Positions 41,635 to 44,916 of a DNA stretch of 64,000 bases are shown here, piece after piece (position 1 is the stretch's first letter; every line of letters begins with the position of its first letter). The notes beneath the pieces are model-generated. The model had not been told where the DNA came from. It saw only the letters and a program-made list of their open reading frames with translations, and did no database searches. The stretch covers positions 1,550,001-1,614,000 of the forward strand of contig NZ_CP018091.1 in NCBI RefSeq assembly GCF_001885215.1, read 5' to 3'. Source of the stretch: Synechococcus sp. SynAce01 (GTDB lineage: Bacteria; Cyanobacteriota; Cyanobacteriia; PCC-6307; Cyanobiaceae). The position numbers and the translations under genes were made by a program.

Positions 41635-44600
41635 TCAGAACCAGCGGCCGCGGGGCTGACCGGGAACAACCGGGCGGAAGGGCACAAAGGGTACGCCGGT
41701 GCCGTTGAAGCCGAAATCGTTCAGCCTGACCCGCACGCCGCCGATTCCCTCAAAGGGGCTATAGAACACGCTTAAGGCATAGGCGCGCCGTTGCCAGCGC
41801 AGCTCCACGAACGAGCCGGTCAGCTCGCCATAGTTTGGAGACGATGGATCCACATTCAGGCCGATCCCCCCGTTGAACAGCAACGGTCCGGCCAGTTGCT
41901 GGGTCAGGCCGACCCCCACGGTGCCCAGGTCAACGGCCTGATCGAAGCCAAATGGGCTGAGCCCATCACGCACGGCGATGCCGCCGGTGAGCGTGATCTG
42001 GGTGAAGTCGAAATAGGGTTTGCTGAAGTTCCCCAGGGTGAGGGTGGGCCCGCCGGAGAACGACAGGACGTTCTGATTGGTGCCGTCGCCGAAGTAGGCC
42101 AGATCGGCAGAGAGATTGGTGTTGAAGGTCAGGCCCGGCACGATCGGCACGGGCGAATAGCGCAGGGCGCCATCCGGGGTCAGGGGTAAGGTTTGGCCTC
42201 GCCAGATGTTGAGGGAGCTGTTGATGGCGCCGAAGGCATTGGCGCGCCAGAGCTGGGCGAAATTATCCGATTCATTGCCGTTGATGAATTCGTTGCTCTG
42301 GTAGTTGCCGACGCCGAGCCGCCAGAAATAGCTGTTCCTCAGCCGTCCCAGATTCGGCAAGACCCCCTGCTGTTCCAGGGAGCCTCCAAAGGCGGAATAG
42401 ACATCCTGTTCACCGAGGGAGCCGTTCCAGATCCGAAAGCGATAGGCGGCAAACAGGCGTGCCACCGTGTCACCCAGCAGCGGTAGCTTCAACGGCCGGC
42501 TCATTTCTCCCCAGCTGCGGGTGCCGTTGGCGATGTTCTCCGGGTTGAAGCTGGAGAGATCGAGGTTGAACTCGGCGTCGAAGCCCAGTAGGGGCAGGTT
42601 GAGCTGGGCCTCCAGGCCGAACAGATCCCCCAATTGCGCGTCCTGCTCGACAGACGAGGACCCCGCCGAAGTTCCTGGCAGCGGGTAGCTGTTTGTTGTG
42701 CCCTGGACGGCACGCTCCAGCAGGAACTGGGGTTCCAGTTGCAGAGTTCCGGTCGATCCGATCCCGATTGGTCTGAGGCGGCGGCCGACGAAAAAGCCGT
42801 CGCGGTCCTCCTCGTCGAAACCGAACACCCAGCGGTTTTCCACCTCCTGTTCCTGCTGGATGCGGGTGCTGCTCGCCACGGGGACCGACAGACGATCCTC
42901 AAAAATCAGGCGGTTGCGGTTGGCGCGGATCACCGTGTCGCCGTTCTCCTCTTGGACGGCCACCACGTTCTCGGCGTCCATCCACACCTGGGCTGGGGTG
43001 AAGGGATCGTTGCTAAAGCTGACCCGGTTGGCGCGCCAGTCGGTGTTGGTCATCTGGATGCGCGGCGACTGAAAGCGCAGCCGCGTCAGGGTGCCCTGGA
43101 CCAGACCCTGCTGCCTGTTGCTGCGCAGACGGCGCACCTGGGGGGGAGTGGCAGGACCGAAATTGCTGTTCTGCTCGCCCTCGGTCAGGTCGGTTCCGCC
43201 GGGTACGGAAAACTGACGGTTCAGCACCAGTCCCTCCCGGGCCTGAACGTTGCTGATGCGCTGCTCGATCGTGGCGATCGCCTCGTCCCGCTCACGTTCT
43301 TGCTGACGCAGGTTGAGGAAGGAGGGCTTCTTCGGAGCTGGTAGCGGCCCCTGGGTTGTTTCAGGGGCTTGGGACCTGGGTTCAGCCCCAGCTTCTGGAA
43401 AAAGCTTGGGCGCTCCTCCGCCCATCGCCGCTTGCTCTAGGGCCTCGGGCAGCGAGCGCGGCCGCTCCGGGGGCTCCTCCGGGCGATTCGGGCAGCCTTT
43501 GGCGGGCGGCATTGACGCTGCCGCCTGCAGGGCGGCTTTCGGGGTGGCATCTTCGCCAAAGCGGTAGCGCAGCCCCAGAAGATAGGCATTGCTGCCTTCC
43601 TTGACGCCGTTGAAGGTCCCGAAGGCACCCGAGCGATGGTGGATGCGCCCCACCACCGACCATTGCGGGGAGAAGGATCCCTCCACCTCGAAACCCAGGT
43701 AATTGAGAATCCGGGACGATCGTTCGCGGAAGGTGTCCTCAAAGTTGCTGAGGCTGGTGGTGACGCTCACGCCCTGGACAACGCCCACATTCAGCCAGGG
43801 CTGCAGCCAGGCCCGCAGGCCGATGCCTGCTGTGAACTCGCCGAAGCTCTGGGCGGCGGTCCGCTGCCCTGAGGCGTCGTTGGTGAAGCGGCTGGTGAAG
43901 CCGCTGCCTCTCTGGGCGGCGGCCCAGTGGCCGAGGGCCGTGAAATCCAGTTCAAGGGCAAACGGTCCTGCCTTGATCAGCCGCCGCTGCAGGCCTGCGC
44001 CGAGCAGCAGCTCCTCCCTGAGCTGGCCCTTGAACTTGAAGGTGTCACCGAAATTGGCGTCGAACAATTGCCCGCCCCAGAGGGTGGCCGCCCAGGGATG
44101 GGGGTGCCAATCCGGGACCGGCGGCAAAATGGTCGGGCAGGCGATCGGCTCAGGGTCCGGCAGGGGTGTGGAGACCGGCAGCTCTGGATTGAGATCCACC
44201 TCGCTGGTGCTGAGATCCAGGACCCCATAGACGTCCTCCATCTCGCCGGTCGCCTCGATCAGGCTGAAGCGCAGGCGGCTGGCCTGGAAGTACTGGTTGC
44301 CGCGCCGGAAGCGCACACTGCCGCTGGCATAAACCGTGCGGTTCGTGGTGTCGTACTCGAGGCGTTCCGCCATCAGCCGGCCACCGGCCAACACAGCTTT
44401 GACATTCCCCGTCGCGACAAAGCGCTGGATCAGCTGGTCAAAGCCCTGCTGATCGGCTGTGATCTCAAGCACCTTGGCCAGCGACTCCGGCGTGTCCACT
44501 GGTTCTGCCAGCTCGGGGCCCATTGCCGCAGGATCGGCCGATGGGCTGCCTGGCTGGTTAGCCAGCGGGCTGCTTAGGAGTGGGTTCGGCGGCTTCTGGC

Positions 44601-44916
44601 TGGGAGGTGCTTGCCAGGATCCACTCGGGTCAGCGCTGGTGGCAGGGTCGCCTGTTTTTGGATCCCTGAGTTCCGGATCGGTGCTCTTTTTTGGATCGCC
44701 GACCTCTCGATCGCCAACTTCTGCCTGAGCAGCTGGCGTTCCAGCGGGCAGCTGGCTGGCTGGGGTGCGTACTTCCAGGGCAGAGTCTGCATCCAGAGCA
44801 GAGCCCGCCTCCTTAATGCCAGGCAGAGGGTCAACCTGCGCGTGAGCTGTGGACCCCAACAAGCCAGCCGCACCGACCAACCCGATCGTCCAGTGGATGG
44901 GGTTGACCAGAGTCAC
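41635..44916 (-). CDS. LptD-like (DUF3769) outer-membrane protein with an extra internal barrel
   Basis: 1093 residues from GTG 44916. Signal peptide 1-26 (cut after AHA). Residues 68-100 hold short Asp-Pro repeats of about five residues, then a Pro-rich linker. Residues 147-240 form an OstA/LptA-like strip (EYDTTNRTVYASGSVRFRRG). Residues about 285-455 look like a small separate beta-barrel ending in RIHHRSGAFG...YLLGLRYRF, with a His427-x-Ser429...Glu440 pattern like the lipid A deacylase PagL. A charged linker (about 525-565) leads to the C-terminal DUF3769 LptD-type barrel, ending GGVRVRLNDFGF. It probably inserts lipopolysaccharide in the outer membrane; the inner barrel may modify it. 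Confidence 0.85.
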   Translation of the reverse strand: MTLVNPIHWTIGLVGAAGLLGSTAHAQVDPLPGIKEAGSALDADSALEVRTPASQLPAGTPAAQAEVGDREVGDPKKSTDPELRDPKTGDPATSADPSGSWQAPPSQKPPNPLLSSPLANQPGSPSADPAAMGPELAEPVDTPESLAKVLEITADQQGFDQLIQRFVATGNVKAVLAGGRLMAERLEYDTTNRTVYASGSVRFRRGNQYFQASRLRFSLIEATGEMEDVYGVLDLSTSEVDLNPELPVSTPLPDPEPIACPTILPPVPDWHPHPWAATLWGGQLFDANFGDTFKFKGQLREELLLGAGLQRRLIKAGPFALELDFTALGHWAAAQRGSGFTSRFTNDASGQRTAAQSFGEFTAGIGLRAWLQPWLNVGVVQGVSVTTSLSNFEDTFRERSSRILNYLGFEVEGSFSPQWSVVGRIHHRSGAFGTFNGVKEGSNAYLLGLRYRFGEDATPKAALQAAASMPPAKGCPNRPEEPPERPRSLPEALEQAAMGGGAPKLFPEAGAEPRSQAPETTQGPLPAPKKPSFLNLRQQERERDEAIATIEQRISNVQAREGLVLNRQFSVPGGTDLTEGEQNSNFGPATPPQVRRLRSNRQQGLVQGTLTRLRFQSPRIQMTNTDWRANRVSFSNDPFTPAQVWMDAENVVAVQEENGDTVIRANRNRLIFEDRLSVPVASSTRIQQEQEVENRWVFGFDEEDRDGFFVGRRLRPIGIGSTGTLQLEPQFLLERAVQGTTNSYPLPGTSAGSSSVEQDAQLGDLFGLEAQLNLPLLGFDAEFNLDLSSFNPENIANGTRSWGEMSRPLKLPLLGDTVARLFAAYRFRIWNGSLGEQDVYSAFGGSLEQQGVLPNLGRLRNSYFWRLGVGNYQSNEFINGNESDNFAQLWRANAFGAINSSLNIWRGQTLPLTPDGALRYSPVPIVPGLTFNTNLSADLAYFGDGTNQNVLSFSGGPTLTLGNFSKPYFDFTQITLTGGIAVRDGLSPFGFDQAVDLGTVGVGLTQQLAGPLLFNGGIGLNVDPSSPNYGELTGSFVELRWQRRAYALSVFYSPFEGIGGVRVRLNDFGFNGTGVPFVPFRPVVPGQPRGRWF
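44617..44715 (-). repeat. Asp-Pro pentapeptide-period repeat in the LptD-like gene
   Basis: Codons 68-100 repeat with period close to 15 bp (GDREV, GDPKKST, DPELR, DPKTG, DPATSA, DPSGS), two units having small insertions. The DNA shows the recurring GGATC-rich unit. It lies in the linker just after the signal peptide. Confidence 0.6.

Follow-up and report, generated by a model that had tools for sequence, protein, structure and literature searches.

Cyanobacterial LptD and its embedded stretch

What is the extra stretch that lies within an LptD-like protein of Synechococcus sp. SynAce01, and could it act on the lipid that this protein would insert? The window analyzed is a 64,000-nucleotide stretch of the SynAce01 genome (NZ_CP018091.1, positions 1,550,001 to 1,614,000). 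An earlier note, made from the letters alone, had proposed that the protein carries an embedded PagL-like deacylase barrel. The features concerned are the following.

41635..44916, minus strand: lptD-like gene with the embedded barrel (open reading frame, 1093 amino acids, GTG start)
44215..44478, minus strand: first part of the LptA-like jellyroll, residues 147–234 (strands of the full-length model)
44137..44139, minus strand: Cys260, ahead of the barrel (invariant, 33 rows)
43558..44094, minus strand: predicted embedded eight-stranded barrel, residues 275–453 (AlphaFold2 models and structural neighbors)
43630..43638, minus strand: His427-Arg428-Ser429 on strand 7, candidate catalytic His and Ser (invariant in 33/33 and 29/29 rows)
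43597..43599, minus strand: Glu440, third residue according to the earlier note (80/80 fused loci among those listed; 20/29 rows)
43588..43590, minus strand: Asn443 at the start of strand 8, candidate third catalytic residue (29/29 rows; in register with PagL Glu140)
43492..43494, minus strand: Cys475, past the barrel (invariant, 33 rows)
43102..43557, minus strand: linker, largely of low confidence, with a helix at 533–548 (full-length model)
41713..43095, minus strand: DUF3769 region, remaining jellyroll and LptD barrel, residues 608–1068 (profile match and model)

Judged by its sequence and predicted model, the 1093-residue product is a cyanobacterial LptD with a putative function in LPS insertion. 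Residues 608–1068 match DUF3769 (PF12600) with 426.6 bits (cut-off 20.5; E = 1.5e-127), and a weak LptD_N match at residues 183–217 falls below its own cut-off. DUF3769 is named LptD in PMC4365693. The predicted full-length model comprises a jellyroll resembling LptA and, after it, a large barrel similar to that of solved LptD structures. In VIA comparisons, the jellyroll aligns with LptA (2r1a_C; Z = 12.3, 2.5 Å, 115/135 residues, over model residues 147–638), and the model as a whole aligns with LptD over 412–449 residues (Z = 13.3–15.3, rmsd 6.5–15.7 Å). Foldseek ranks 1–15 are all LptD chains (E = 2.5e-11 to 5.2e-8), at TM-scores of just 0.10–0.20; among them is 4q35, which we take to be LptD, its entry title being silent on the point. 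Cys260 and Cys475, the sole two cysteines of the protein, bracket the extra stretch.

A predicted separate eight-stranded barrel within the jellyroll

The stretch had been placed at about residues 285–455, ahead of the DUF3769 barrel. It does exist, and we refine its bounds to about 266–454. Modeled alone with AlphaFold2, the domain forms a barrel of eight long strands (pLDDT 84.5, pTM 0.78), and the same eight strands recur in the full-length model as a unit preceding the LptD barrel strands. The two models therefore agree with the proposal of a separate barrel rather than one continuous LptD barrel: residues from about 275 to 453 are predicted to form an outer-membrane barrel of their own within the LptA-like jellyroll, between Cys260 and Cys475. 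On another view, the stretch is nothing more than a long insertion in the periplasm, or else it belongs to a single, larger LptD barrel, and its barrel-like alternation is due to chance. The modest confidence of the full-length model (pLDDT 69.1, pTM 0.60) leaves some room for this, but the good confidence of the domain modeled alone and the conservation of the barrel across family genomes (see below) speak against this view, and the separate proteins in other genomes contradict it; we regard it as highly improbable.

The first VIA neighbor of the domain model is PagL (2erv; Z = 16.6, 1.9 Å, 135/146 residues aligned), as it is for residues 275–453 of the full-length model (Z = 16.9, 2.2 Å, 140/150). 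The predicted fold is thus the eight-stranded barrel of PagL, with OprF nearly tied: the N-terminal barrel of OprF reaches Z = 15.5 against the domain model and 16.2 against the full-length model, and a designed barrel reaches 15.3 and 15.9, respectively. Because these are nearly level with PagL, the fold is not PagL-specific. PagL is also absent from the best 50 Foldseek matches listed for the domain model, in which OmpA and Ail rank first.

Many of the VIA neighbors, including OprF, OmpA, and OmpW, are non-enzymes, as would be expected if the barrel had no enzyme activity and served as a membrane anchor or as a lateral partner that stabilizes or gates LptD, perhaps replacing a missing partner protein. 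Its invariant residues would then be structural; from strand alternation, Arg424, Arg428, Arg450, Arg452, and Glu410 do look like an interior salt network. We consider this account unlikely.

Distribution and history of the barrel

Of 386 cyanobacterial genomes, 33 encode the embedded stretch; within the window's own family, the barrel domain is found in 201 of 400, so the stretch is conserved rather than a product of chance. The barrel also occurs as a separate protein, with no LptD attached, both among other cyanobacteria and in alphaproteobacteria, where plasmids encode it; the separate members whose annotation was examined are called hypothetical proteins. These relatives keep His-Arg-Ser and Asn, and the residues are therefore not there for LptD, which argues against a barrel that merely anchors or gates its host.

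The DUF3769 tree requires two changes, and one gain of the barrel followed by one later loss is the simplest history on the trees. Three unfused LptDs of the sister clade have the cysteine pair and no barrel, and one sister-clade genome encodes the barrel in a protein of its own. Prediction and comparison together support a separate barrel with an invariant His-Arg-Ser...Asn set, gained once and later lost once, with the cysteine pair of the insertion site also present in a barrel-less sister clade. The barrel would have been inserted into the periplasmic jellyroll of LptD in an ancestor of picocyanobacteria. Our literature search found no earlier report of an LptD-barrel fusion, and the passages of PMC4365693 and PMC9581022 consulted do not mention one.

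Candidate active-site residues

We aligned 29 rows, comprising 18 fused proteins and 11 separate ones (8 cyanobacterial, 3 alphaproteobacterial). His427, Arg428, Ser429, Asn443, Glu410, and Gly448 are invariant in all 29, and His427-Arg428-Ser429 is likewise invariant in the 33 rows of another set, which bears out the conservation expected of His427 and Ser429. The expectation for Glu440 as the third residue did not hold: it is replaced by Gly, Asp, Ala, or Arg in 9/29 rows, whereas Asn443 never changes there. By our reading of the sequences, these substitutions fall in 9 of the 11 separate relatives, and Glu440 is kept in all 80 fused loci among those listed. We also considered Glu410 as an alternative acid. 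Although it is invariant, strand alternation places it in the middle of strand 6, facing inward, and it is probably a structural residue.

In an hhalign profile alignment, His427 falls on His126 of PagL, Ser429 on Ser128, and Asn443 on Glu140. Among nine PagL sequences, position 140 is Glu in three, Asp in three, and Asn in three, so the invariant Asn443 is an acidic or amide residue of the kind found there. The arginine three residues before the histidine is present in 27/29 rows here and in 8/9 PagL sequences. His-x-Ser lies at the end of strand 7 in all 29 rows, as in PagL, and the positions of His, Ser, and the third residue are on the more hydrophobic, presumably lipid-facing side of their strands in both families, the face being judged by hydropathy alone, from 29 window-family rows of which one was wrong (L154, another reading frame). 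Invariant polar residues on a lipid-facing side would be unusual outside active sites, a further point against a purely structural barrel. It is plausible that Ser, His, and Asn form a site on the lipid face.

Kinship to PagL by sequence is not proven. PagL Asn129 and Asn136, invariant in nine PagL rows, are not kept, being Gly430 and a variable residue here. PF09411 gives no match over its cut-off in the window protein; of the 55 members listed it matches one (E = 0.55), again below the cut-off. A separate relative (P0004) has a sub-threshold match (E = 0.026) at residues 85–123, outside the motif region, and the LptD frame of one genome (G388) reaches 13.7 bits (E = 0.106 per genome), within chance for 40 genomes. 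Profile-profile comparison with PagL is not significant (hhalign, Prob 0.2, E = 0.26); with fused rows alone, the motif is left unaligned. The corrected set scores 16.5 against the PagL profile versus 16.4 against the reversed profile, and 29 of 400 parity-keeping shuffles score as high. A profile search of solved-structure sequences returned a single match, a ribosomal protein (E = 0.79), and NCBIfam returned nothing relevant for 10 rows. The proposal of a PagL-like deacylase therefore stands in part: PagL is the first VIA neighbor, the profile evidence does not extend the likeness to sequence, and the activity itself is conjectural.

Separately, with a permissive limit of E = 10, DUF3187 matched 13 of the 55 members listed, the strongest at E = 0.0034; in a follow-up it matched one of 10 proteins, with residues 171–210 of that domain covering the motif region.

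A possible lipid hydrolase at the LptD exit

We tentatively favor an acyl hydrolase of the PagL kind, joined to LptD and acting on lipid A. As in PagL, strand 7 (His427 and Ser429) and strand 8 (Asn443) would together form a lipid-facing Ser-His-Asn site close to the outer leaflet. Ser429 would attack an ester-linked acyl chain, and the link to LptD would let the enzyme meet lipid A on its way out of the LptD barrel. The deacylase activity is putative, and so is its substrate: a 3-O-linked hydroxyacyl chain of lipid A is the most likely candidate, with an outer-leaflet phospholipid or glycolipid as second choice.

In favor of this reading, LpxC is present in 20/20 genomes tested. According to a review table (PMC4113827), the lipid A of Synechococcus WH8102 and CC9311 has four acyl chains. 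This number equals the expectation from the four-enzyme cyanobacterial lipid A pathway (PMC3087551), so no trimming is evident in these two strains, a result that bears on the fusion only if they carry it. If they do, four chains are too many for strong deacylation of lipid A to take place, which would suit an acyl hydrolase or transferase working on outer-leaflet phospholipid or glycolipid, with chemistry nearer that of OMPLA, to clean or prime the membrane around the LptD exit. The invariant His-x-Ser...Asn set is of the OMPLA type, but the barrel has eight strands rather than the twelve of OMPLA, and its placement inside LptD points to LPS. This alternative seems to us doubtful, about as much so as a barrel without enzyme activity.

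Returning to the lipid A hydrolase, we suggest, with slightly more reserve than for the activity itself, that a single polypeptide both inserts and edits LPS in picocyanobacteria: an unnamed HxS...N outer-membrane lipid hydrolase, separate elsewhere, would have been built into a cysteine-bracketed jellyroll loop of LptD such that each lipid A could be trimmed at its exit. LptD is an essential exporter in well-studied bacteria, and to our knowledge, the known outer-membrane enzymes that edit lipid A are separate proteins. If the suggestion is right, abundant marine and freshwater phototrophs have a fused exporter and editor, which would show how membrane composition can be set at the exit gate, and it becomes possible to predict how far lipid A is acylated in picocyanobacteria. 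It would also point to a family of outer-membrane hydrolases marked by HHRSG...GSN. In many small cyanobacteria of oceans and lakes, one molecule may both export the surface lipid and trim it.

Comparison with known systems

The window protein belongs to the same family as other cyanobacterial LptDs over residues 608–1068, and its model has their LptA-like jellyroll and LptD-like barrel. The extra barrel is absent from 15 of 20 DUF3769 relatives tested (frames of 621–984 amino acids) and present in five (1027–1116 amino acids).

PagL (PF09411, 2ERV), the lipid A 3-O-deacylase, is an eight-stranded barrel of similar size to the embedded one, with His-x-Ser on strand 7 and, where strand 8 begins, Glu, Asp, or Asn; these are in register with the residues described here. 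In contrast, the embedded barrel has Gly in the position of Asn129 and lacks Asn136; an Arg that never varies separates its His and Ser, its last loop is two residues longer, and it is built into LptD.

OMPLA (PldA) has His-x-Ser with Asn on the next strand (in E. coli, His142, Ser144, and Asn156), an arrangement that the invariant His427, Ser429, and Asn443 resemble in sequence; OMPLA, however, is a twelve-stranded barrel. One Thauera phospholipase A, by our reading of its sequence, carries HESNG and an Asp twelve positions after the Ser. Finally, multi-barrel outer membrane proteins, reportedly the subject of work by Solan and colleagues in PNAS in 2021, are said to have two barrels per chain, one of them eight-stranded, as predicted for this LptD.

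A predicted eight-stranded barrel inside LptD

The subject of this section and its neighbor are as follows.

41635-44916, minus strand: lptD-like ORF, 1093 residues
45248-48388, plus strand: adjoining ORF, 1046 aa, by eye resembling a family 38 alpha-mannosidase

Residues 608–1068 of the lptD product match DUF3769 in Pfam (E 1.5e-127), the family to which an excerpt of PMC4365693 assigns cyanobacterial LptD, and residues 183–217 give a weak, below-cut-off match to LptD_N. In the full-length AlphaFold2 model (33 aligned sequences as input; mean pLDDT 69.1, pTM 0.60), strands at 151–234 make up the opening portion of an LptA-like jellyroll, eight more occupy 275–453 and are followed by a poorly defined linker, and the remaining jellyroll and large barrel lie at ∼606–1071. 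LptD chains fill Foldseek ranks 1–15, with good E-values and low TM-scores; these include 4q35, which we take to be LptD, its record title lacking that name. VIA-align superposes LptD over 412–449 residues (Z 13.3–15.3, rmsd 6.5–15.7 Å) and LptA over 115 of 135 residues (Z 12.3, 2.5 Å). Because the LptA alignment spans model residues 147–638, it suggests that the insert interrupts the predicted jellyroll itself.

Modeled alone from 55 sequences, residues 245–468 give eight long strands (mean pLDDT 84.5, pTM 0.78). The top VIA neighbor of this domain model is PagL (2erv_B; Z 16.6, rmsd 1.9 Å, 135 of 146 residues), followed by OprF (4rlc; 15.5), a designed barrel (15.3), and OmpA (14.8). PagL is top again with the full-length model (Z 16.9, 2.2 Å, 140 of 150 residues, model 275–453), where OprF, at Z 16.2, is a tie under VIA-align's own rule. 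Foldseek ranks OmpA and Ail first for the domain model, and PagL is absent from its best 50 rows. The predicted fold therefore agrees with PagL without singling it out. Prediction and comparison give good support to the separate barrel within LptD that the earlier note described, and the unusual nature of the protein is real. Elsewhere in this genome, a 348-aa frame (L003/L036, G000:C1:1198703-1198972) with a weak barrel match (E 0.0245, 38% identity, query 112–195) is probably another outer-membrane barrel.

A candidate lipid-facing site

Positions invariant across 33 rows include His426, His427, Arg428, Ser429, Gly430, Asn443, Tyr445, and Gly448, with Glu440 kept in 30 and replaced by Ala, Arg, or Gly in the other three. 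In a corrected set of 29 rows (18 fused and 11 separate proteins, including distant cyanobacterial and three alphaproteobacterial plasmid proteins), His427, Arg428, Ser429, Asn443, Glu410, and Gly448 are present in all 29 and Glu440 in 20. The alphaproteobacterial relatives came from four tblastn records (best E 8e-16, 35% identity); the three sequences taken are annotated as hypothetical and give no Pfam match above cut-off.

Stand-alone proteins of the HHRSG family, from Skermanella, Aminobacter, and Chelativorans plasmids
L141, 1399-1989
L142, 1351-2001
L143, 1351-2001

Among the best 80 of 147 relatives, HHRSG, a Glu ahead of GSN, and a single Cys per flanking stretch examined occur in 80 of 80 frames, the HHRSG part of this count being circular because that motif was one of two scan patterns and also guided the choice of frames. 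Complete frames number 73 (953–1189 aa), and the other seven reach a contig end. A contig titled Bifidobacterium breve (L095, from a metagenome-assembled genome) bears a cyanobacterial-type lptD fusion and probably belongs to a mislabeled bin.

When the barrel family was aligned to nine PagL sequences with hhalign, R424-I-H-H427-R-S429-G-A paired with PagL R123-A-I-H126-Y-S128-N-A and Asn443 with Glu140, across a loop two residues longer than that of PagL; the corrected 29-row comparison repeated this register. Since position 140 is Asn in three of the nine PagLs (Glu and Asp in three each), Asn443 falls inside that family's own range. Mean hydropathy is 1.76 on the His427/Ser429 face of strand 7 versus −0.46 opposite, and 1.38 on the Asn443 face of strand 8 versus −1.01 (one of the 29 window-family rows being wrong in both), much as in PagL (His126/Ser128, 1.95 versus −1.45; Glu140, 1.13 versus −0.74). 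Such hydrophobic faces suggest that the candidate site faces lipid.

The profile comparisons with PagL are not significant: the family alignment gives Prob 0.2 and E 0.26, the corrected comparison scores 16.5 against 16.4 for reversed PagL, with 29 of 400 parity-keeping shuffles equally high, and the barrel-domain alignment pairs 14 columns only, elsewhere than the motif. The invariant Asn129 and Asn136 of PagL are not kept in the embedded barrel. The PagL family model, PF09411, yields no domain match at cut-off, the one match among 55 members having E 0.55; its match to one separate relative (P0004, E 0.026) is below cut-off and outside the motif region. In genome G388 it matches within the LptD frame at 13.7 bits, a score that chance alone could give across 40 genomes. 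We therefore call the barrel PagL-like rather than a PagL. The catalytic set proposed earlier, His427-x-Ser429 with Glu440, is plausible as a PagL-like site if the less conserved Glu440 gives way to Asn443.

Weak DUF3187 (PF11383) matches occur in 13 of 55 domain sequences, over the HHRSG...GSN region in the single case with position seen, and DUF3187 may be a distant relative. On a Thauera plasmid (NZ_OW011624.1, 37262-38987; L152/L148), a PagL (acyloxyacyl hydrolase) gene adjoins one for a phospholipase A that carries an HESNG motif.

Distribution and history of the domain

The barrel domain occurs in 33 of 386 evenly drawn cyanobacterial genomes, the identical 33 being recovered by profile search, with 30 long frames (787–1226 aa, of which the shortest lies at a contig end) and three short ones (291–363 aa). 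Within the window's family it is present in at least 201 of 400 genomes and at least 35 of 59 genera, a count that includes G370, where the barrel is a separate protein. Each of the 20 genomes tested encodes a DUF3769 protein, which carries the barrel motif in five (G386, G387, G388, G400, and G403) and lacks it in 15, among them G370, G239, and G274.

On a DUF3769 tree of 24 fused and 15 plain (barrel-less) rows, built by a quick method and with several rows long or compositionally odd, the fused/plain label changes twice, a number equally low in 0 of 500 shuffles. Rooted on other cyanobacterial families, the tree is most simply explained by a single gain, later than the divergence of the G239/G274/G370 clade, and a single loss inside the rows grouping with named Prochlorococcus loci. 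In the domain tree, which carries a long-branch warning, one branch (89/94) separates the fused rows from all others, of which the stand-alone G370 protein comes closest to them (19 rows jointly, 100/98). The barrel of fused proteins is bracketed by two cysteines, in a context similar to the ACPP/VCPP/ACPE...GCPG pair of the three plain LptDs of the G239/G274/G370 clade, where the paired cysteines lie 31–32 residues apart with no barrel between them. This pair is absent from four Prochlorococcus-like plain LptDs and one other outgroup protein inspected (L122). In the simplest history, a separate barrel gene would have been inserted into an already existing cysteine-bracketed loop of LptD, and barrel and loop would later both have been lost in the streamlined clade.

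Lipid A context

LpxC is found in all 20 genomes tested, and an LpxL-type late acyltransferase in three (G239, G274, and G370), all without the fusion, and in none of the eight fused genomes of that set. These three are exactly the family members with the LptD cysteine loop but no barrel. They are an exception to the statement, in an excerpt of PMC3087551, that the cyanobacterial lpx genes are limited to lpxA, C, D, and B, a set that we read as giving four primary acyl chains. Excerpts of two further papers describe lipid A with four acyl chains and no phosphate in Synechococcus CC9311 and WH8102 (PMC4113827), and odd-chain hydroxylated fatty acids with phosphates absent (PMC4515613). If CC9311 and WH8102 bear the fusion, their four chains, as described there, argue against strong constitutive trimming. 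Lipid A deacylation by the embedded barrel is a testable guess; the barrel may also be a latent or partial enzyme or act on another lipid substrate.

Comparison with known systems

Our literature search found no report of an LptD-barrel fusion; the general kind, multi-barrel outer-membrane proteins, is already known, reportedly from the work of Solan et al. in 2021. The catalytic set of OMPLA is His-x-Ser...Asn, a pattern shared by the candidate residues His427, Ser429, and Asn443 of the embedded barrel.
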